This document shows positions 19,650 through 30,919 of a stretch of DNA of 64,000 nt, piece by piece (within the stretch, counting starts at the first letter, position 1; the number at the start of each line of letters is the position of its first letter). This stretch comes from Pseudothauera nasutitermitis (lineage in GTDB: Bacteria; Pseudomonadota; Gammaproteobacteria; Burkholderiales; Rhodocyclaceae), in the NCBI RefSeq assembly GCF_004801295.1, contig NZ_SSOC01000005.1, forward strand, positions 434,001 to 498,000, in the 5' to 3' direction. The notes under the pieces were generated by a model. That model saw only the letters and a list, made by a program, of their open reading frames with translations, was not told the DNA's origin and did not search any database. The position numbers and the translations under genes were made by a program.

Positions 19650-21365
19650 TCAGCGTTTGCGCGCGGGATGGCGCGCGACGTCGTCGATGATCAGCATTTC
19701 CGCCTGGGCGGCGGTGACCGGACGGGAGTACAGATAGCCCTGGCCGTACTCCACGCCCATCTGGCGCAGCAGGGCTTCCTGCTCGGGCAGTTCGATGCCC
19801 TCGCAGACCACCTCGCGGCCGAGCTTGTGGGCGAGGTTGACGATGGTCTCGACGAAGCTGCGGTCGTCGGCACGCTCATGCATGTGCATGACGAAGGAGC
19901 GGTCCACCTTGAGCGCGTCGATGGGCAGGCGGTGCAGGTAGGACAGCGAGGAATAGCCGGTGCCGAAGTCGTCGAGCATCAGCTTGAGGCGGGTGCGCTT
20001 GAGCGCTTCGAGCAGTTCGATGGCGCGCTCGGCGTTCTCCATCATCGCGCTCTCGGTGATCTCCAGCTTCAGATGGCGGGCGGACAGGCCGGTCTCGCGC
20101 AGGGTCTGGCGGATTTCCGTGAGGATTTCCGGATGCAGCAACTGGCGGGCGGACAGGTTCACGCTCACCGTGAGCGCCGGCCGGCGTGGGAAGGCGCGCT
20201 GCCAGCGGCGCATCTGCGCACAGGCTTCGCGCAGCATCCAGCGGCCGATGTGCATGATCAAACCGTTTTCCTCGGCCAGCGGGATGAATTCCGCCGGAGA
20301 GATCAGCCCGCGCTCCGGGTGGTTCCAGCGCACCAGAGCCTCGAAGCCGGTCAGGCGGCCGTCGCGCATGCGCACGATGGGCTGGTAGTAGGCTTCGAAC
20401 TGGTCCTTCTCCTGCGCGCGGCGCAGGTCCAGCTCCAGGTCCAGGCGGCGCAGTGCCTCCTCGTGCATGCCGCGGTCGAACAGCACGTAGCCGCCGCCGC
20501 CCTGCCCCTTGGCACGGCGCATCGCCATGTTGGCGTCGCGCAGCATCACGTCGGCTTCCTCGTACTGCTCGCCGGACAGCGTGACCCCGGAGGACAGGCT
20601 GGAGAACACCTCGTGCTCGTGCAACAGGAAGGGCAGCACGAACTTTTCCTGCAGGCGCTTGATGACGCGCACCGGCGAGACCGCGTCGCGCACGTCCTCC
20701 AGCAGGATGCCGAATTCGTCGCCGCCCAGGCGGGCGACCATGTCGGTGGGCCGGGTGGTGCGCCGCAGCAGGTTGGCCACCTCGATCAGCAGCAGATCGC
20801 CGATGCGGTTGCCCAGGCTGTGGTTGATCACGCTGAAGCGGTCCACGCCGCAGTGGATCACCGCGAAGCGCAGATCCTTGCGGCGCTGCGCGCGCTGCAT
20901 GGCATGGCTGACGCGGTCGAGGAACAGGCCGCGGTTGGGCAGGCCGGTGAGGCCATCGACGAAGACCTCGGGCAGGCGCGCCTCGTGCCGGGTGAGACGC
21001 ACGCCGGTTTCGTGCGCGGAGGCGTAGAACAGGCCCTGGTCGGGGTCGTACGAAACGCTCCAGGCAAGGCCGACGTAGCTGCCGTCGGCCTTGCGACAGC
21101 GGCAGGAGAAACGCACGGTGGACAGGGCTTCGCCGATACAGCCGAGGCGGTCGATGACATCGCCGCGGTCGACCTCGTGCAGCAGTTCGGTAAACCGCCG
21201 CCAGCGCAATTCCTCCTGGCCGACGCCGAGCACCTCGCGCCACGACTCGCTCATCATCTGCACGACCCAGTCGTCGTCCAGGATCATCAGCAAGGCGCCG
21301 GGCAGGCGGAAGAATGCGCTCTCCGACGGCAAGACCTGCGGCGGCTTGCGGTAAATCTGCATCAT
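19650..21365 (-). CDS. PAS-GGDEF-EAL cyclic-di-GMP enzyme
   Basis: 571-residue cytosolic protein: a PAS-like sensor (about residues 20-130), a GGDEF domain and an EAL domain. The cyclase motif LGGDEF is intact, with an RPTD I-site five residues upstream, so product inhibition is possible. The phosphodiesterase part keeps EAL (FEALVRW), ITES, DDFGTGYSSLSYL, KVDRSF and QGYLYSRP, so hydrolysis should also be possible; net direction cannot be told. No membrane segment is seen. I start at ATG 21365. A 90-bp piece of its PAS region is duplicated at 22419-22508. Confidence 0.9.
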   Translation of the reverse strand: MMQIYRKPPQVLPSESAFFRLPGALLMILDDDWVVQMMSESWREVLGVGQEELRWRRFTELLHEVDRGDVIDRLGCIGEALSTVRFSCRCRKADGSYVGLAWSVSYDPDQGLFYASAHETGVRLTRHEARLPEVFVDGLTGLPNRGLFLDRVSHAMQRAQRRKDLRFAVIHCGVDRFSVINHSLGNRIGDLLLIEVANLLRRTTRPTDMVARLGGDEFGILLEDVRDAVSPVRVIKRLQEKFVLPFLLHEHEVFSSLSSGVTLSGEQYEEADVMLRDANMAMRRAKGQGGGGYVLFDRGMHEEALRRLDLELDLRRAQEKDQFEAYYQPIVRMRDGRLTGFEALVRWNHPERGLISPAEFIPLAEENGLIMHIGRWMLREACAQMRRWQRAFPRRPALTVSVNLSARQLLHPEILTEIRQTLRETGLSARHLKLEITESAMMENAERAIELLEALKRTRLKLMLDDFGTGYSSLSYLHRLPIDALKVDRSFVMHMHERADDRSFVETIVNLAHKLGREVVCEGIELPEQEALLRQMGVEYGQGYLYSRPVTAAQAEMLIIDDVARHPARKR

Positions 21366-22418: not shown

Positions 22419-22508
22419 ATACAACCGAGGTGGTCGATGACGTCGCCGCGGTCGACCTCGTGTAGCAGTTCGGTAAACCGCCGCCAGCGCAATTCCTCCT
22501 GGCCGACG
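22419..22508 (-). pseudogene. 90-bp duplicated fragment of the PAS-GGDEF-EAL gene
   Basis: This segment matches 21136-21225 at 86 of 90 positions and corresponds to the PAS-region peptide around EELRWRRFTELLHEVDRGD. Three of the four differences are synonymous and one changes Arg to His, so the copy probably derives from a functional paralogous gene. No start, stop or domain context remains, so it is a remnant. Confidence 0.65.
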
Positions 22509-22593: not shown

Positions 22594-22617
22594 CGTTATA
22601 TCCATTCTTATATTGCG
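22594..22617. promoter_or_regulatory. ModE-like palindrome (TATAT-N7-TATAT flanked by CG)
   Basis: A CGTTATAT half is followed by seven bases and a second half ATATTGCG-like element; the core reads TATAT-N7-TATAT and is flanked by CG on both sides, as in ModE molybdate-repressor sites. It is an AT-rich island in GC-rich DNA, about 230 bp upstream of the first gene of the transport cluster. Two weaker inverted repeats (22638-22672, 22702-22720) follow. Assignment to ModE rests on motif memory and needs testing. Confidence 0.45.
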
Positions 22618-22845
22618 GTTATCAAATACGTGCTGGCGAGCGTATCGCTTGAACAAAGAGACTTAAGGCATACGTTCATCTTTCCGCCAGGATCGTTATT
22701 TCATCGAAGACATATCGATGTCCGGAAGAGGTTCGATGACGAACCGATTCGCAGCGCCCGCGCGGCCGCCGCAGCGCAGCCAAGTCTGCCGCCCCCTTGC
22801 CGTGCCGGCCGCCTGCCCGCGGCACCGATCCAAGCAGCACGCATC
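22618..22845. other. Leader region of the metal-uptake cluster
   Basis: About 230 bp between the ModE-like box and the first methyltransferase gene. It contains an imperfect inverted repeat near 22638-22672 (CGTATCGCTT against AAGGCATACG) and a CATCGA/TCGATG pair at 22702-22720. I see no coding potential and no recognised riboswitch. It is long enough for an mRNA leader with regulatory structure. Confidence 0.3.
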
Positions 22846-23637
22846 ATGAGCCTCGCCGCCATCGACTTCGGCCGCCTCTACCGCGACCACCTCGCCGCCG
22901 CCAAGCGCAACCCGAAGCCCGCCAGTGTCTGGGACGCGCGCGCCGCCGAGCTGGGCCGCAAGGCGCTGAAGAGCCGCTACGTAGACGAATTCATCGGCCG
23001 CATGGATCTGGCCGGCGCGCGCACGCTGCTCGACGTCGGCTGCGGCCCCGGCACCATCTGCCTGCCGCTCGCCGGGCGGCTGGAACGCGTGATCGGCCTC
23101 GATTTCAGCCGGGGCATGCTGGACGCGCTGCAGGAAAACGCGGCCGGACTCGAGCTCGACAACGTCGAGGCCCTGCAACTCGCCTGGGAGGACGACTGGG
23201 CGGCGGTGCCGGCCTGCGACATCGTCGTCGCCTCGCGCTCGACCACGGTCGCCGACCTGGAGGTCGCGCTGCACAAGCTGAACGACAAGGCGAAGCGGCG
23301 CGTATACCTGACCCACCTGGTCGGCGGCCGCTTCATCGACGACGCCGTGATCGAGGCCGTCGGACGCGATCTGCCGGCGCTGCCGGACTACATCTACGCC
23401 GTGAACATCCTGCACGGCATGGGCATCCACCCGCGCCTCGACTACATCGCCAGCGAGGGCCGGCTGACCGGCGCGACGGACTTCGACGAGTTCGCCGCGC
23501 ACGTGGCCTGGGCGCTCGGCGAACTCTCCGCCGCCGAACGCGAACGTCTGCATGCGTGGTACCTGCGCCAGCCGGCGCCGAGCCTCGGCGCCCCGATGCG
23601 CTGGGCCTTCATTTCCTGGGACAAGCAGCCGGATTGA
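22846..23637 (+). CDS. Class I SAM-dependent methyltransferase (cluster gene 1)
   Basis: 263-residue Rossmann-fold methyltransferase. The SAM motif I LLDVGCGPGTICLPLA lies near residue 60, with the acidic residue in VIGLDFS and motif II in CDIVVASRST. It begins MSLAAIDFGRLYRDHLAA after a suitable start in an Arg/Ala-rich leader. It is the first gene of a run with a permease, ATPase, TonB receptor and binding protein, so it may modify a small metal-binding ligand or a product of the pathway. Substrate is unknown. Confidence 0.75.
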   Translation: MSLAAIDFGRLYRDHLAAAKRNPKPASVWDARAAELGRKALKSRYVDEFIGRMDLAGARTLLDVGCGPGTICLPLAGRLERVIGLDFSRGMLDALQENAAGLELDNVEALQLAWEDDWAAVPACDIVVASRSTTVADLEVALHKLNDKAKRRVYLTHLVGGRFIDDAVIEAVGRDLPALPDYIYAVNILHGMGIHPRLDYIASEGRLTGATDFDEFAAHVAWALGELSAAERERLHAWYLRQPAPSLGAPMRWAFISWDKQPD

Positions 23638-23699
23638 ATCCAAGCCGGAACACCTCATGAACCCCGACACGCGCACGCCCCTCGCGCCGATACCGCAGC

Positions 23700-24755
23700 A
23701 TGGCTGAAGCGGCCTCCACCCATCCGCTGCCCGCCACCGCCCCGGCGGCCGCGCGCATGCGCTGGCTCGTCGCCCCCCTGCTGGCGCTGGCGGCCACGCT
23801 GGCCGCGCTGTCGTTCGGCCGCTATCCGCTGCCGCCCTGGGAGACCGTGCGCTTCCTGTTCGCCGCCGCCGGTTTCGTCTCCATGGAGCCGGAACGCTAT
23901 GCCCTGCTCCACAACCTGATCGTCGAAATCCGCCTGCCGCGCGTGCTGGCGGCGATCCTGGTGGGCGCCTCGCTGTCGGTGTCCGGCGCGGCCTACCAGG
24001 CGCTGTTCCGCAATCCGCTGGTCTCGCCGGGGCTGCTGGGCGTGCTGGCCGGGGCCTCCGCGGGCGCCGCGCTGGGCATCCTGCTGGACGGCCACTGGCT
24101 GCTGGTCCAGGCCGGCGCCTTCGTCATGGGACTCGCCGCGGTCGGCATCGGGGTGGGCATCGCCCACCTGTTCGGCGGCGGCTCGATCATCATGCTGGTG
24201 CTCGGCGGCATTCTCAGCGGCGCGCTGTTCACCTCGCTGCTGACGATGGTGAAGTACCTGGCCGACCCCTACAGCCAGTTGCCGGCCATCGTCTATTGGC
24301 TGATGGGCAGCCTCGGGCAGGCCGGCATCGGCGACATGGCCTGGGCCGCCCCGCCCATGCTGGCCGGCATCCTGCTGCTCTGCCTGATGGGGCGCGCGCT
24401 GGACGCGCTGTCCATGGGCGACGACGAGGCGCGGGCGCTGGGCGTGCCGGTGACGGCGGTGCGCCTGACCGCCATCGCCGTTGCCACCCTGATCTCGGCG
24501 CTGACGGTTTCCATCGCCGGCATGATCGGCTGGATCGGCCTCGTCGTGCCGCACATCGCGCGCCTGCTGGTGGGGCCGGGCAACGCCCGCCTGCTGCCGG
24601 CGGCGGCGAGCCTGGGCGCCGCCTTCCTGCTCTTCGCCGACGGCCTGGCGCGCAATCTGTTCGCCGCCGAACTGCCCATCGGCATCGTCACCGAGCTGCT
24701 CGGCATCCCGGTTTTCCTGCTCGTGCTGCACCGCGTGCGGCGGGGGTGGACATGA
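23700..24755 (+). CDS. FecCD-family ABC transporter permease
   Basis: 351-residue inner-membrane subunit of the BtuC/FecCD type with about ten transmembrane helices. Conserved segments AAILVGASLSVSGAAYQALFRNPLVSP (the FecCD hallmark near residue 80) and GWIGLVVPHIAR near the C-terminus are present. Only one permease gene exists, so it should act as a homodimer. It overlaps the ATPase gene by four bases. An upstream 16-codon ORF (23657-23707) ends inside its first codons and may couple translation. This family moves siderophores, vitamin B12, heme and, in MolBC systems, molybdate or tungstate. Confidence 0.9.
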   Translation: MAEAASTHPLPATAPAAARMRWLVAPLLALAATLAALSFGRYPLPPWETVRFLFAAAGFVSMEPERYALLHNLIVEIRLPRVLAAILVGASLSVSGAAYQALFRNPLVSPGLLGVLAGASAGAALGILLDGHWLLVQAGAFVMGLAAVGIGVGIAHLFGGGSIIMLVLGGILSGALFTSLLTMVKYLADPYSQLPAIVYWLMGSLGQAGIGDMAWAAPPMLAGILLLCLMGRALDALSMGDDEARALGVPVTAVRLTAIAVATLISALTVSIAGMIGWIGLVVPHIARLLVGPGNARLLPAAASLGAAFLLFADGLARNLFAAELPIGIVTELLGIPVFLLVLHRVRRGWT

Positions 24756-25537
24756 GCATCGCCGCCCGCGACATCCACTTCGCCTACCACGGCCGCCCCG
24801 TCCTGGCGGGCGCCAGCCTGGCGCTGGCCGCCGGCGAACGGGTCTGCCTGCTGGGCGCCAACGGCGCCGGCAAGAGCACGCTGCTCAGAATCCTGCTCGG
24901 CCTGCAGCGGCCCGACCGGGGCAGCGTGACGGTGGACGGCACAGCGCTGGCCGGCTGGCACCGCCGGCAACTGGCCCGTCGGGTCGCCTACGTGCCCCAG
25001 GTGCACGTCGCGCCCTTCCCCTACACGGTGCGCCAGGTGGCGCTGATGGGGCGCCTGCCGGCCACCGGCCTCCTCAAGGCGCCCGGCGCCGCCGACCGGG
25101 CCTGCGTGGGCGACATCCTCGAACACCTGGGCATCGCCCATCTCGCCGAGCGCGCCTACACCGAGATTTCCGGCGGCGAGCGGCAACTGACCCTGATCGC
25201 CCGGGCGCTGGCGCAAGAGGCCCTCCTGCTGGTGATGGACGAACCCCTGGCCGGGCTCGACTACGGCAACCAGGTCCGCCTGCTGGAGCGCCTGGAAGGG
25301 CTCACCGGGGAAGGCTACGGCGTACTGATGACCACCCACGATCCCAACCAGCCGCTCACCGGCAGCCAGCGGGTCGCCCTGCTGATCGACGGGCGCATCG
25401 CCGCCGACGGCCATCCTCACGAGGTCCTCACCCCGGAAGCGATCCACCGGCTCTACGGCGTGCGCGTCGAACTGCTGCATACCGCCGACGGCCGGCGCCT
25501 GGCCTTCCGCCCGGCCGGCAGGAGAGCCGCATGCTGA
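24752..25537 (+). CDS. FecE/BtuD-type ABC transporter ATP-binding protein
   Basis: 261-residue ATPase that powers the adjacent FecCD permease. Walker A GANGAGKST, signature ISGGERQLTLIARAL and Walker B LLLVMDEPLAGLD are intact. The start overlaps the permease stop (ATGA), indicating translational coupling. The RPDRG and YVPQ elements are typical of the FecE group of metallophore transporters. The chemical nature of the cargo is not shown by this subunit. Confidence 0.9.
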   Translation: MSIAARDIHFAYHGRPVLAGASLALAAGERVCLLGANGAGKSTLLRILLGLQRPDRGSVTVDGTALAGWHRRQLARRVAYVPQVHVAPFPYTVRQVALMGRLPATGLLKAPGAADRACVGDILEHLGIAHLAERAYTEISGGERQLTLIARALAQEALLLVMDEPLAGLDYGNQVRLLERLEGLTGEGYGVLMTTHDPNQPLTGSQRVALLIDGRIAADGHPHEVLTPEAIHRLYGVRVELLHTADGRRLAFRPAGRRAAC

Positions 25538-25635
25538 CCCGCCGCCCCCTCGCCACGGCCGCCCCGCGGCCCTGTGCAGCCCAAGGCGCGACGCCTTCCC
25601 GTCGCGCTTTTCAATCCGTCAAGGAGGAATACGTG

Positions 25636-27789
25636 ATGCACTGTCTTCGACCCGTCATGGCAAGCTTGCTGCTGCTGCCCGCCGTATCCCTGGCCGAAAC
25701 CGACAGCCCCAGGGTGTTGCCCGAAGTCGTCGTGAATCCCGCAGGCTTCACCGAGCAGGAGCGGGTGACCGCCACCAGCGCCTTCACGATCGCCGAAGAA
25801 ACCATCAAGCGCTCTTCCGCGCAGAACCTGAGCGAACTGCTGATCGAACAAGGCTTGCCGGTGGAGGCCACCCCGACCGACCACGGCGAGAACACCACCC
25901 TGATCCGCGGCTTCCACACCGAGCACCTGATGACCGAGGCCAACGGCAAGGTGCTGATCCTCATCGACGGCCGGCGCTCCGGGGTCGCCAATACCCGGCA
26001 GATTTCCCTGTACAACGTGGAACGGGTCGAGGTGCTGCGCGGGCCCGAGATGTTCAAGTATTCCATGGGCTCCTCCGGCGGCATCATCAACGTCGTCACC
26101 AAGCGGGGCGGGCCGGAATACTTCAGCGGTTCGGCGCGGATCGGCTTCGGCAGCCACGACGCCTACCGGGCCGGCGTGGATCTGCACGGCCGCGCGGGCC
26201 AGTTCGACTACACCTTCGGCTACGAACACGGCACCGTGCGCCGCGACTACAAGGACGGCCGCGGCAACAAGGTCCACAACACCCGCACCGACGCCACCGA
26301 ACGCCTCAACTTCAATCTCGGCTATACCTTCAACGAGCGGCACCGCATCGGCATCGACGGCTACCACTACAACGTGGACAAGGCGCACCGGCCGTCCTAC
26401 GTCGATGAGGAAGGAGAAATCCGCAACAACAGCTATACGGACCGCAAGACCCAGTTGATCCACCTGAACTACGAAGGCGCCAACGCGGACGGCAGCCTGT
26501 CGTGGAAAGCCAGCCTCGGGCAGGGCAAGGACCTCTACGAAACCTACGAAGCCGCCTCCCGCTACCCGAAGGGGCAGGAAGTCGATACGGACCGCGCCCA
26601 GGGCAGCCTGACCTATGCTTCCACGCTGTTCGATCTCACCGGGGGGCTGGATTACATCAAGTACGAGGTGGAAAACTCCTCCACCGCACGCGGCAACTTC
26701 CTGCGCCCGGGCGGGCTGGATCCCCAATGGGCGGGGGTGGGCTATCCCATGCACCCCACCAGCACCACCACCCTGTGGGGCGCCTACCTGATCGGCACGC
26801 TCAAGCTGCGGGACGGGACGCTGAACCTTTCCGGCGGCCTGCGCTATGAACGCGCGAGCGCCAAGGACCTGTCCGTCGGCGACGAGCACTACGACCGGGT
26901 GCCCTACTTCACCAGCAGGGGAATCACCTCACGCGATCAACTGCCCACCCGCCGCAACTTCGAGCACGTTTCGCCGACCGTCGGCGTGTCCTGGCTGCCG
27001 GTGGATGGACTCAAGCTGCGGGCCAACTACACTCAGGGCTGGCGGGCGCCATCGGGACGCCAGCTGTTCGCCAGCAGCTTCTACGAGGACTACGGTGCAC
27101 CCGGCGATCCCCGGCTCAAGCCCGAGTTCACCGACGCCTACGAAATCGGCTTCGACCTGGCGCGCACCGACTGGCGGCTGTCCGGCACCTACTTCTATTA
27201 CGAAATCAAGGACAACGTCTATATCTACCCGGGCGTGCGGCCCGACGGCGGCACCCCGCAAGGGCGGGTGGTCATGAACGTCGACAGGCGCATCCAGGAA
27301 GGGGTGGAAATCCAGGTCAGCGCGGACGTGGCCGGCCTGCTCGGCTACCGCAGCGTGGAACTGCGCCCCTACCTCAACCTCACCCACATGCTCCGCAAGA
27401 AGGAAGTCATCGACGAGGGCGGGCCGGGGCTGCTGGGCAAATGGTGGCCCATCGCCCGCATGCCGGACACCACCGCGAGCTACGGCATCCGCTTCAGCCA
27501 TCCGGCCTCGAAGTTCTCCGGGAACCTGAACTTCAACTTCTACGGCAAGCAGTACGGCGGACGCGCCAACGTCGGCGACGGTCCGCTGGTTGGCTTCGGC
27601 AACTTCACCGTGGCCAACCTGAGCCTGCGCAAGCGCCTGTGGGAAGCAGGGGAACGCAGCAGCGTGGACCTGAAGGTGGACATCAACAACCTGTTCGACG
27701 AAACCTACTCCTACCTCGGCCGGATCCCCCAGGATGCCTATGCCTACCCCGGCCGCAACTTCCATGCCACGCTGATCTACAACTTCTGA
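25636..27789 (+). CDS. TonB-dependent outer-membrane receptor
   Basis: 717-residue outer-membrane channel with signal peptide MHCLRPVMASLLLLPAVSLAE, a TonB-box-like PEVVV segment, an N-terminal plug (about residues 30-170) and a C-terminal barrel ending in IYNF with the terminal Phe required for assembly. The plug motif VEVLRGPEMFKYSMGSSGGIINVVTKRGG is present. It lies between the ATPase and binding-protein genes and should carry a ligand too large or too scarce for porins. AAGGAGGA at 25621-25628 precedes the ATG and sets the start at 25636. Confidence 0.93.
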   Translation: MHCLRPVMASLLLLPAVSLAETDSPRVLPEVVVNPAGFTEQERVTATSAFTIAEETIKRSSAQNLSELLIEQGLPVEATPTDHGENTTLIRGFHTEHLMTEANGKVLILIDGRRSGVANTRQISLYNVERVEVLRGPEMFKYSMGSSGGIINVVTKRGGPEYFSGSARIGFGSHDAYRAGVDLHGRAGQFDYTFGYEHGTVRRDYKDGRGNKVHNTRTDATERLNFNLGYTFNERHRIGIDGYHYNVDKAHRPSYVDEEGEIRNNSYTDRKTQLIHLNYEGANADGSLSWKASLGQGKDLYETYEAASRYPKGQEVDTDRAQGSLTYASTLFDLTGGLDYIKYEVENSSTARGNFLRPGGLDPQWAGVGYPMHPTSTTTLWGAYLIGTLKLRDGTLNLSGGLRYERASAKDLSVGDEHYDRVPYFTSRGITSRDQLPTRRNFEHVSPTVGVSWLPVDGLKLRANYTQGWRAPSGRQLFASSFYEDYGAPGDPRLKPEFTDAYEIGFDLARTDWRLSGTYFYYEIKDNVYIYPGVRPDGGTPQGRVVMNVDRRIQEGVEIQVSADVAGLLGYRSVELRPYLNLTHMLRKKEVIDEGGPGLLGKWWPIARMPDTTASYGIRFSHPASKFSGNLNFNFYGKQYGGRANVGDGPLVGFGNFTVANLSLRKRLWEAGERSSVDLKVDINNLFDETYSYLGRIPQDAYAYPGRNFHATLIYNF

Positions 27790-27797
27790 ACCGATCT

Positions 27798-27827
27798 TTC
27801 CGGGGGAGGGCCACCCCGCCTCCGGAA
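27798..27827. repeat. Imperfect hairpin between the TonB receptor and binding-protein genes
   Basis: Arms TTCCGGGGGAGG and CCGCCTCCGGAA pair at 10 of 12 positions. There is no U-tract, so it is more likely an mRNA-stability or attenuating hairpin than a full terminator. It is followed by a 13-bp sequence identical to one end of the MITE plus its flank. Confidence 0.35.
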
Positions 27828-27851
27828 GACAGGCTCTGAAGGGAGGGCTCA

Positions 27852-28928
27852 ATGCTGAACGGACGCGGAAGACTGCGCCTGCGGATCGCGGCACTGGCGC
27901 TGCTGGCCTGGAGCCTGGGCTGCGGCGCGGCAGCGGCGCACGCCCCGTCGGCGTGCACGACGGATGGCGCGCACGCCCGCGCCGTCGTCGACATGGCCGG
28001 GCGGACCGTCGCCCTGCCCCCGGCGGTGAACCGCGTCGCCACCGTCGGTTCGGTGCCGGTCATCAACGGCTATCTGTTCGCCCTCGGCGCAGGGCGGACC
28101 ATCGTCAACGGGCTGCCCGCGCGCTTCACCCAGTCGAAGCGCTGGTGGCTGCAGACCGCCATCGCCCCCTATCTGGCCGACCGCCCGGTGCTGCAAGGGC
28201 AGATCAACAGCGAGGTCGATCTGGAAACCCTCGTCCGGCTTGCCCCGGATCTCGTCATCACCATGGACCGGACCCGGATCCGGGCACTCGAGACCGCGCG
28301 GATTCCCGTCCTGTTCCTCGAATGGAAAGATGCGTCCGACATCCGCGCCAACCTGCATCTGCTCGGCTGCGCGCTGGATCGCCGGCCCCAGGGCGAGGAC
28401 TACCTGCGCTATCTGGACGACACGATGCGCCGCATCCGGCAGGCCCTGGACGGCGTGCCCCGGGCCGAACGGCCGAAAGTGCTGTACTTCAACCCGAACA
28501 CCATGGCGACGCCCCTGGACATCGCCAACTGGTGGATCGAGGAAGCCGGCGGCCAGAGCGTCACCGCCGGGCTGGCGGGGGGCGGCACGGCGCACTACTC
28601 CCACGAGCAGCTATTGCTGTGGAATCCCGACATCCTGATCGTCAATTCGCCGGAGCAGAAGACGGCCATCTACCAGGACGAACGCTTCGCCAGGCTGCCC
28701 GCCGTGCGCAACCAGCGGGTCCACGTCACCCCGGTCGGCGCCCACGCATGGGGGCAGAGAACCATCGAACAGCCGCTGACCGTGCTGTGGGCCGCCCAGC
28801 TCTTCCACCCCGCCCGGCTCGCGGACATCGACCTGGTCGGCGAACTGCGCACCTTCTACCGACGCTTCTTCGACTACCCGCTCACCGAACAGGAGGCCCG
28901 CGCCATCCTGGCCAGCCACCCGCGCTGA
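27852..28928 (+). CDS. FecB/MolA-type periplasmic binding protein
   Basis: 358-residue receptor of the Peripla_BP_2 (class III) family that delivers ligand to the FecCD/FecE pair. An N-terminal signal peptide of about 30 residues precedes a mature protein with the conserved core DMAGRTVALPPAVNRVATV, NSEVDLETLVRLAPDLVI and NPDILIVNSPE. An atypical lipobox-like SLGC is present, but the signal looks like type I. The same fold binds siderophores, B12 and the molybdate/tungstate of MolA. The ModE-like upstream box makes an oxyanion or its chelate attractive; this is an inference. Confidence 0.85.
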   Translation: MLNGRGRLRLRIAALALLAWSLGCGAAAAHAPSACTTDGAHARAVVDMAGRTVALPPAVNRVATVGSVPVINGYLFALGAGRTIVNGLPARFTQSKRWWLQTAIAPYLADRPVLQGQINSEVDLETLVRLAPDLVITMDRTRIRALETARIPVLFLEWKDASDIRANLHLLGCALDRRPQGEDYLRYLDDTMRRIRQALDGVPRAERPKVLYFNPNTMATPLDIANWWIEEAGGQSVTAGLAGGGTAHYSHEQLLLWNPDILIVNSPEQKTAIYQDERFARLPAVRNQRVHVTPVGAHAWGQRTIEQPLTVLWAAQLFHPARLADIDLVGELRTFYRRFFDYPLTEQEARAILASHPR

Positions 28929-29000
28929 TGCATACCGCCCTCGAAACCGGAAACAGCGGCCCGCGCCGCCAGCCGCCGATCGAACCCACAGGAGTCTTCC

Positions 29001-30047
29001 ATGGATACGAACACCGCCCCCGTTGATCTCGCCAGCCTCGCCGCGCCCACGGCCGCACGCACCATCCACCGCATCGTCGACGGCTTCAAATCCTTCCAGG
29101 TGCTGCACGCGGGCTTCGCCAGCGGCCTCTTCGACTGGCTGGACCAGCACGGCCCGGCGGAAAAATCCGCCATCTCGGCCGCCACCGGCCTGCGCGGCGC
29201 CCACCTCGGCGGCTTCCTGCAGGCGCTCGAAGACCTCGGCCTGCTCGCCCGCCGGCACGGCGCCTACAGCCTGGCCGCCGAACTACGCCCGGTGCTGGTT
29301 TCCGCTTCGCCCTGGTGCCGGGCCGCGGAAATCGAGGCCCTGTTGCAGCCGGCCCACGGCTGGCCGGACCTGCGCGCCTTCCTCAGCGAAGGCGGAGCGC
29401 CCCCGGCAACGCCGGCCGCCGCCCCGCCGCCCCTCGCCCTGCACCCCTTCCTGGACGAAGCCCTGCGGCTGGCCGGTACGCTCACCGCGCGCTGGCGGCA
29501 GCACGGCACGGCGCCGCACCGCCTGCTCTGCTTCGACGCCGGCGACGGCCTGGCCGCCGCCGCGCTCTGCCAGGCCCTGCCGGAACTCGGTGCCACGGTG
29601 GTGACCGCCCCCGCGGCCGTCCCTGCGACGCAGGCGACGCTGGAGGCCTGCGGCCTCGCCGGACGCACCGCCATGCAAGCCGGCAGCCCGCTCGACGTAC
29701 CGGTGTCCGGCAGCTACGACTGCGTCCTGCTGTTCCACGCCCTCTACCCGGTACGCAAATCCACCGCCGACGCGCTCGCCGCCACCGCTGCGCGCCTCGC
29801 ACCGGGCGGCGAACTATGCGCGGCGCACTGGTTCTGCCTGGAAGCCTGCGAAACCGCGCCGGGCGGCCTGCGCGACCTCGACAAGGCCGTGCTGACCGAC
29901 AGCCACCCGCTCTGCCACCTCGAACAATTCAGCCAGCGCCTGGAACAGGCCGGCCTCGCCGACATCGAACGCAGCGACCTGCCCGGCGAACACGGCAACA
30001 CCAAGCTGCACTTCGGCCGCCGGCCGCACAACGGAGAACACGCATGA
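29001..30047 (+). CDS. O-methyltransferase-like protein with winged-helix dimerisation domain (cluster gene 6)
   Basis: 348-residue protein. Residues 20-95 form an O-methyltransferase-type dimerisation/winged-helix domain (FKSFQVLHAGFASGLFDWL), and the C-terminal half is a Rossmann fold with a degenerate SAM loop DAGDGLAAAAL. An HWF-type segment (ELCAAHWFCLEACE) lies near the C-terminus. The degenerate motif leaves activity uncertain. It overlaps the downstream DUF364 gene by ATGA, suggesting joint function. Possible roles are methyl transfer to a metal-binding ligand or regulation. Confidence 0.65.
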   Translation: MDTNTAPVDLASLAAPTAARTIHRIVDGFKSFQVLHAGFASGLFDWLDQHGPAEKSAISAATGLRGAHLGGFLQALEDLGLLARRHGAYSLAAELRPVLVSASPWCRAAEIEALLQPAHGWPDLRAFLSEGGAPPATPAAAPPPLALHPFLDEALRLAGTLTARWRQHGTAPHRLLCFDAGDGLAAAALCQALPELGATVVTAPAAVPATQATLEACGLAGRTAMQAGSPLDVPVSGSYDCVLLFHALYPVRKSTADALAATAARLAPGGELCAAHWFCLEACETAPGGLRDLDKAVLTDSHPLCHLEQFSQRLEQAGLADIERSDLPGEHGNTKLHFGRRPHNGEHA

Positions 30048-30919
30048 ACCCGGCTCCCGACTCCATCCCCGGCGCCATCGAACGCCCGCCCACCCTGCTC
30101 GCCGACCTCCATGCCAGCGTGCTCGCACGCCTTGGCCCGGAGGCCGGCCAACTCACCGTCGCGCGCGCCGTGCTCGGCATCTTCTTCACCGGGGTCAAAC
30201 TCTCCAACGGCGCCGGCGGCCTGTGTGCCACGCCGATCAAGAGCGTGCCGGAGGCGGTGTGCTGCCCGAGTTCGGCGAAAGCCATGCCGACCCCCGGCAA
30301 GATCGCCGGACGCCCGGCCGCACAGATCCTGGAAGACCTGTACCGGCCGCAGGACCTGCGCCGCACCCTGGCCATCGCCACCCTCAACGCATTGGCCGAA
30401 ACGCTGTGGCTGCGCGACGGCGCACCGGCCGGCGTCGAACTGCGCGACGGCGACGCCTTCGATGCGCTCACCATCGCAGCGGGCCAGCGCGTCGCGCTGG
30501 TCGGCGCCTTTCCGCCCTACCTGCGCGAGCTGCGCCGGCGCGGCCAGCCCTTCCATGTCCTGGAGATGGACCCGGCCACCCTCAAGCCGGAAGAACTGCC
30601 GTTCTACGCGCCCGCCGAACGGGCCGCGGAAATCGTGCCGCAGGCCGAAGTCTTCATCACCACCGGCACGACGCTGATCAACGGCTCGCTCGACGGCCTG
30701 CTGCGCCTGCTGCGCCCCGGCGCCCAGGCCGCGGTCATCGGGCCGACGGCCACACTGATCCCCGAACCCTACGCCCGCCGCGGCGTCACCGCCGTCGGCG
30801 GCACGCGCGTACTGGCCGCGGACGAACTGCTGGAAATCCTTGCCGAGGGCGGCTCCGGCTACCACTTCTTCGGCAAGACCGTGGAACGTGTGACGCTGCG
30901 GTTGTCACCGGCGGGCTGA
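30044..30919 (+). CDS. DUF4213/DUF364 putative heavy-metal chelation protein
   Basis: 291-residue protein with a DUF4213 N-terminal domain and a Rossmann-like DUF364 C-terminal domain. A Cys-rich segment (GLCATPIKSVPEAVCCPSSA) near residue 65-82 contains three cysteines. The DUF364 part has EVFITTGTTLINGSLDGLL and VIGPTATLIPEP, the family's typical features. Members are commonly encoded beside metal-uptake ABC systems and are proposed to help make or process metal chelates. It is the last gene of the cluster and overlaps the second methyltransferase gene. Confidence 0.7.
   Translation: MNPAPDSIPGAIERPPTLLADLHASVLARLGPEAGQLTVARAVLGIFFTGVKLSNGAGGLCATPIKSVPEAVCCPSSAKAMPTPGKIAGRPAAQILEDLYRPQDLRRTLAIATLNALAETLWLRDGAPAGVELRDGDAFDALTIAAGQRVALVGAFPPYLRELRRRGQPFHVLEMDPATLKPEELPFYAPAERAAEIVPQAEVFITTGTTLINGSLDGLLRLLRPGAQAAVIGPTATLIPEPYARRGVTAVGGTRVLAADELLEILAEGGSGYHFFGKTVERVTLRLSPAG

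Follow-up and report, generated by a model that had tools for sequence, protein, structure and literature searches.

A cluster of seven genes in the bacterium Pseudothauera nasutitermitis is likely to be a molybdenum-starvation operon, which imports a chelate of molybdenum (or tungsten) and then processes it in the cytoplasm. The cluster lies at positions 22594 to 30919 of a 64,000-nucleotide stretch of contig NZ_SSOC01000005.1, referred to here as the window. As judged from sequence, the import function and the link to molybdenum are well supported. The seven open reading frames (ORFs) are preceded by two palindromes of the ModE type. MT1 and MT2 below denote two proteins related to methyltransferases that use S-adenosylmethionine (SAM).

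22594..22617, no strand: ModE-type palindrome 1, CGTTATATCCATTCTTATATTGCG; 14 of 16 consensus letters, spacing 8
22694..22717, no strand: ModE-type palindrome 2, CGTTATTTCATCGAAGACATATCG; 13 of 16 consensus letters, 100 bases after the first
22846..23637, + strand: MT1, class I SAM methyltransferase, 263 amino acids (aa); Pfam Methyltransf_25, aligned with relatives
23700..24755, + strand: FecCD-type permease; PF01032, E 1.1e-79
24752..25537, + strand: FecE-type ATPase; PF00005 (ABC_tran), 4-base overlap with the permease
25636..27789, + strand: TonB-dependent outer-membrane receptor; start at 25633 (GTG) or 25636 (ATG), Plug PF07715 and barrel PF00593
27852..28928, + strand: FecB-type periplasmic binding protein, MolA-like; Pfam Peripla_BP_2
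29001..30047, + strand: MT2, methyltransferase-fold protein without the canonical SAM-binding acids; alignments and fold comparison
30044..30919, + strand: DUF4213/DUF364 protein; PF04016 (2.8e-42) and PF13938 (8.3e-18), both above cut-off

When molybdate is scarce, molybdenum-loaded ModE would leave the two palindromes and the operon would be expressed. The TonB receptor would take up a complex of molybdate (or tungstate) that is too bulky to pass porins, and FecB together with FecCD-FecE would carry it onward. Once in the cytoplasm, the complex would be processed by MT1, MT2 and the DUF364 enzyme, so that molybdenum reaches Mop, ModE and cofactor synthesis. We infer ModE binding at the palindromes, the direction of regulation, and a chelate rather than the free oxyanion as the cargo.

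Layout of the operon

An earlier note, made from the sequence alone, described seven genes on one strand with mostly tiny gaps or overlaps. The ORF coordinates and Pfam matches confirm this arrangement, with gaps in order of 62, -4, 95, 62, 72 and -4 bases. The flanking genes are on the opposite strand, which most likely sets the operon's limits. Upstream is a GGDEF-EAL gene and downstream a long mutase-like gene (both named from their translations, not profile-tested). Just upstream of the operon promoter, 90 bases of the GGDEF-EAL gene are duplicated at 95.6% identity (22419-22508 and 21136-21225), perhaps as a scar of the operon's arrival.

The ModE-type palindromes

The two 24-base palindromes sit 229 and 129 bases before MT1. 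The first has the half-site arrangement CGTTATAT-N8-ATATTGCG at 22594. This is the ModE-like box of the earlier note and it is real; the second, at 22694, had gone unreported, and such boxes recur above chance in relatives. The consensus used for scoring differs by one half-site letter from CGCTATATA-N6-TATATAACG, the consensus printed in a passage of PMC2700814.

Sites with at least 13 of the 16 letters occur 22 times in 31 stretches (636 kb), whereas five shuffles of the full set gave one; all 22 are intergenic by the gene calls made here. When intergenic DNA of 22 stretches is searched, there are again 22 such sites against 0.1 expected from shuffles. Sites of at least 14 were obtained in the 31 stretches with a spacing of 8 only; at a threshold of at least 12, the other spacings gave 18 sites (spacing 6), none (spacing 7), 3 (spacing 9) and 9 (spacing 10). 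Paired sites of at least 13, as in the operon, are common to L009, L022, L046 and L048.

In another arrangement (L013 2-1382 and L049 163-1565), MT1 has its own 15/16 ModE site and is followed by a TOBE protein resembling the end of ModE, in which the helix-turn-helix (HTH) part was not seen.

Molybdenum genes elsewhere in the genome

ModE itself is encoded in the same genome at G000:C4:279523 (101.9 bits against a cut-off of 98.5, with HTH and Mop domains). Around it are Mop, ModD, one full modABC and a second modA-modB pair, all above their cut-offs. Within the next 30 kb there are TonB/ExbB/ExbD-like genes, as well as a receptor 58% like a receptor found in a second module of relatives (by BLAST; the receptor by Pfam). 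Molybdopterin-oxidoreductase matches in the genome are above the cut-off in 7 of 8 cases, although NADH dehydrogenase subunits can match too. One molybdopterin oxidoreductase frame (G000:C4:97606-99057) has a single in-frame TGA and is perhaps a selenocysteine formate dehydrogenase.

Other metal regulators

The best Fur score in the operon promoter is 10 of 19, against a window maximum of 13. In intergenic DNA of the 22 stretches, Fur matches of at least 13 numbered 5 against 2.7 expected, and those of at least 14 numbered 0 against 0.4; NikR matches of at least 10 were also 0 against 0.4. By Rfam, no cobalamin riboswitch is present in the window or in seven further stretches: the window gave no family at the gathering score and no tRNA, and the seven stretches gave only signal recognition particle RNA (L009). 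With neither enrichment nor a riboswitch, control by iron (Fur), nickel (NikR) or cobalamin is unsupported. Zur matches of at least 15 numbered 3 against 0.4 expected. Control by Zur was dropped, as all three coincide at L023 3175-3219, upstream of a gene (358 aa) that lies about 8 kb from ModD-DUF364.

A Fur site or a cobalamin riboswitch in place of ModE had been named beforehand as evidence against molybdenum or tungsten. Both were looked for as described, and the molybdenum or tungsten reading was not refuted.

The import machinery

The FecCD permease, ABC ATPase and Peripla_BP_2 protein form the component set of a MolBC-A-type importer, and all are present by Pfam. MolA is among the best matches of the FecB protein, tied with 4ovk and 4hn9. 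TonB receptors serve cargo for which porins do not suffice because it is too big or too scarce. Because such a receptor is present, the cargo is taken to be a chelate.

The same components could belong to an ordinary importer of iron siderophores, haem or cobalamin, with ModE sites that are incidental. The best-matching profiles of the permease, ATPase and receptor among the NCBIfam models listed are those for B12, F420-0, haem and siderophores, and YiuA is structurally close to FecB. Those profile matches are nevertheless all below their curated cut-offs, and the receptor falls below the cut-off of every one of the 25 NCBIfam models listed out of 27. The Fur and NikR scores and the lack of a cobalamin riboswitch given above also count against an ordinary importer, as does the recurrence of ModE sites in betaproteobacterial relatives and one alphaproteobacterium. 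This explanation is very unlikely.

Relatives and their gene neighbourhoods

One scan of a genome collection led to 13 loci. Within the order, 4 of 399 genomes have a match to the DUF364 protein at E <= 1e-20, and within the class 4 of 369 (own genome in both counts); two of the class matches are only 34-35% alike. On these counts the subfamily is rare and patchy.

Co-occurrence of the gene families with ModE sites, which had been proposed as a check, was examined in a close set of 16 genomes whose DUF364 is at least 57% alike; L012 and G511:C44, which share contig number and length, were counted once. ModE sites of at least 13 are present in 10 of the 16. In the stretches covered, as judged by BLAST to reference genes, FecB/CD/E occur in 12, MT2 in 11 and DUF2478 in 13. 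MT1 was found genome-wide in 10 of the 16, by a search of 20 entries in which one genome apparently stands twice. Sites of at least 13 are absent from seven stretches that are off-cluster or hold distant DUF364 only (L024, L026, L042, L043, L044, L051 and L052). The distant DUF364 loci (L024 at 52%; L042, L043 and L044 at 32-34%) also have no mod gene among the references, and were excluded from the 16.

The cluster neighbours in several relatives include ModE, ModA, ModB, ModC, ModD, Mop, NifQ, NapA and TonB/ExbB/ExbD. NapA is above its cut-off; a formate-dehydrogenase/nitrate-reductase-like neighbour is below. In L009, two ModE sites stand in front of a receptor, a weakly ModA-like protein (21.6 bits against a cut-off of 25), DUF2478, FecB, FecCD, FecE, MT1, DUF364, ModD and ModE, in this order. 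In genome G768, an island of about 44.6 kb begins with the first ModE site, closes with modC and has 38 genes. It holds seven receptors, seven FecB and three radical SAM proteins, with a single MT1, MT2 and DUF364. Three of the seven receptors were annotated via Pfam, the other receptors and FecB via BLAST, and part of the 38 genes by BLAST only. Finally, a plasmid of the alphaproteobacterium Paracoccus encodes a receptor, a methyltransferase and a DUF364 at 48%, together with two FecB/CD/E sets, the second of which is preceded by a 14/16 ModE site.

Uptake of molybdenum or tungsten, as first suggested by the earlier note, is thus supported by the ModE sites here and in relatives, the mod neighbours in several relatives, and the MolA-like binding protein.

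At up to three mismatches, the whole genome (4,723,750 bases) has three ModE-type places, two in the operon promoter and one before modE. Their location counts in favour of this reading; their number is not enriched, since a reversed control pattern likewise gives three. Other observations weigh against the reading. Spacings 6 and 10 yielded 5 and 2 sites of 13, and the excess at these two spacings may reflect register slips of repetitive half-sites. Three named gammaproteobacterial loci are without a ModE site of at least 13. Genes for methanol dehydrogenase (mox) lie next to the Paracoccus copy (L069 2098-18491), which makes a role with a different metal possible there.

The cargo could also be tungsten or vanadium, with ModE as a shared sensor. 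Tungsten and vanadium genes have been described near DUF364 homologues in a passage of PMC2954201, and MolA also binds tungstate according to a passage of PMC4031551. Against this, the NifQ, NapA and formate-dehydrogenase/nitrate-reductase-like neighbours point to molybdenum, and the annotated genes include no neighbour specific to tungsten or vanadium. Such a cargo is improbable.

In G764, G766 and G768, the second module contains a cytochrome c joined to an Oxidored_molyb domain (L046 12502-13311, L045 17952-18794 and L048 2981-3784), with a receptor and DUF2478 beside it; the G768 copy was annotated by Pfam and the others by BLAST. This protein is relevant to a further explanation, in which the cargo is ready-made molybdopterin or a cofactor fragment, salvaged whole. 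The paper on a DUF364 structure predicts flavin- or pterin-like ligands in one of its passages (PMC2954201). However, all Cys residues of the three cytochrome copies belong to the haem motif, which leaves them without the usual molybdenum ligand; the window operon lacks this protein, and the annotated genes include none for pterin processing. Salvage of a whole cofactor therefore has very little probability.

One further DUF364 gene, distant in sequence, lies on an Azoarcus plasmid beside VWA and AAA ATPase genes (L070 7171-9561), with no molybdenum genes among those listed.

The three cytoplasmic proteins

The earlier note counted two SAM-methyltransferase-type proteins, which holds for MT1 and only in fold for MT2. 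By Pfam and alignment with relatives, motif I of MT1 is intact (LLDVGCGPG, with the acidic residue and glycines). MT2 matches the O-methyltransferase dimerisation domain of Pfam at 23.8 bits, just below the cut-off of 25.6. In 10 of 10 aligned orthologues it has Cys at position 177 in place of the motif I Asp, and T, V or I at 202 in place of the beta-2 acid; two of two paralogues retain both SAM-binding acids. H276, C279, C283, H302, C305 and E308 are invariant, and C177 is so in orthologues. Judging from these residues, MT2 is unlikely to bind SAM as methyltransferases usually do. Its fold matches DsyB by Foldseek (E 6e-17). Domain placement differs, as the TM score is about 0.54 and the root-mean-square deviation 9.2, and the predicted model is weak at residues 279-297, in the region of the Cys/His site (predicted local distance difference test, pLDDT, under 50).

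The DUF364 protein matches PF04016 at 144.2 bits against a cut-off of 23. A pair of cysteines, Cys73-Cys74, is invariant in an alignment of 17 sequences. No known reaction was found for this family in the literature, though structures have been solved.

For the three enzymes, processing of the imported chelate is given about an even chance and synthesis of a chelator a clearly smaller one, the remainder falling to another role. In the synthetic alternative, the enzymes make a small molybdenum chelator (a molybdophore) without peptide or NRPS-independent siderophore (NIS) synthetases, and the transporter retrieves the loaded form. The intact SAM motif of MT1 suits synthesis. Radical SAM proteins nearest HmdB are found inside molybdenum clusters (L004 2623, L006 1195, L022 8029, L046 17665 and L047 10814; 90-119 bits against a cut-off of 320.9). 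Their presence in 4 of 19 genomes would also fit, as would ModD, a relative of quinolinate phosphoribosyltransferase, which adjoins DUF364 in L009 and L023. Chelator synthesis was itself proposed for DUF364 in a passage of PMC2954201.

On the other side, a radical SAM protein has no match at E <= 1e-20 in 15 of the 19 genomes, own included. Neither the seven operon genes, the only part of the own genome searched for one, nor the 38 genes of the G768 island include a non-ribosomal peptide synthetase (NRPS), polyketide synthase, NIS synthetase or opine dehydrogenase; an exporter is likewise missing from both sets, part of the 38 being identified by BLAST only. Several receptors and binding proteins per cluster fit poorly with one self-made chelator. 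On the suggestion that the methyltransferases make or modify the chelator, the evidence is divided: MT1 is by sequence a normal SAM methyltransferase, MT2 probably is not, and the annotated genes show no synthetase. Synthesis of a molybdophore is thus possible yet doubtful.

Behind a FecB/CD/E set in a Janthinobacterium metagenome-assembled genome (L061 282-3726) are genes for a luciferase-type monooxygenase and an MFS protein, whose products could degrade or move a chelate. The monooxygenase family includes chelate-degrading enzymes.

Processing is preferred to synthesis because there are many receptors per single enzyme set, because synthetases are missing from the annotated genes and the radical SAM protein from most genomes, and because of this monooxygenase and MFS pair. 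The seven receptors and seven FecB with one DUF364 in G768 would suit several imported chelates sharing one processing step. A more specific and tentative proposal is a TonB-dependent "molybdenum siderophore" economy. Diverse molybdenum chelates would be imported and a three-protein cytoplasmic module would strip the metal. In this module, MT2 may have exchanged SAM for a Cys/His site taking Mo(VI) from the chelate, and modification of the ligand would fall to DUF364 (Cys-Cys) and MT1.

Significance and comparison with known systems

Molybdenum is usually described as entering bacteria in the form of free molybdate. If the present reading is true, a ModE-controlled TonB route would place molybdenum beside iron as a metal that bacteria scavenge as a chelate with machinery of its own; in some relatives the cluster includes TonB/ExbBD genes. 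For the DUF364 family, it would supply a metal, a regulator and partner enzymes as starting points for testing what reaction it performs. Molybdenum limits the use of nitrate and dinitrogen in many freshwaters, as stated in a passage of PMC3440940.

The literature searched gave no described ModE-controlled TonB system, nor a TonB- or ModE-linked DUF364 or FecBCD molybdenum system, though such a receptor may have been noted before. PMC2700814 treats ModE sites, and TonB is not mentioned in its text.

The methyltransferases DsyB, SibL and BchU share their overall fold with MT2. MT2 differs in the absence of two acids, the Asp of motif I and the one at beta-2, and in its extra invariant Cys and His residues. 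The ModE regulon with ModABC has the same sensor, operator type and metal family. ModABC imports the free oxyanion with a ModA-type protein; the present system instead combines a FecB-type protein with a TonB receptor and enzymes.

A link of DUF364 to molybdenum, tungsten and vanadium is not new, having been published in 2010 (in passages of PMC2954201). The protein of that paper, Dhaf4260 (3l5o), belongs to the same DUF364/PF04016 family; molybdenum, tungsten, vanadium and iron transport genes are noted there as neighbours of the family, and heavy-metal chelation was proposed. The text of that paper does not contain the terms TonB, outer membrane or receptor, and ModE was not found in its passages; the present subfamily is distinguished by the invariant Cys73-Cys74.

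The nearest known importer is MolBC-A of Haemophilus influenzae, a type II molybdate/tungstate importer described as low-affinity for molybdate in a passage of PMC4031551. That paper makes no mention of TonB; to such an importer, the present operon adds a TonB receptor, enzymes and ModE sites.

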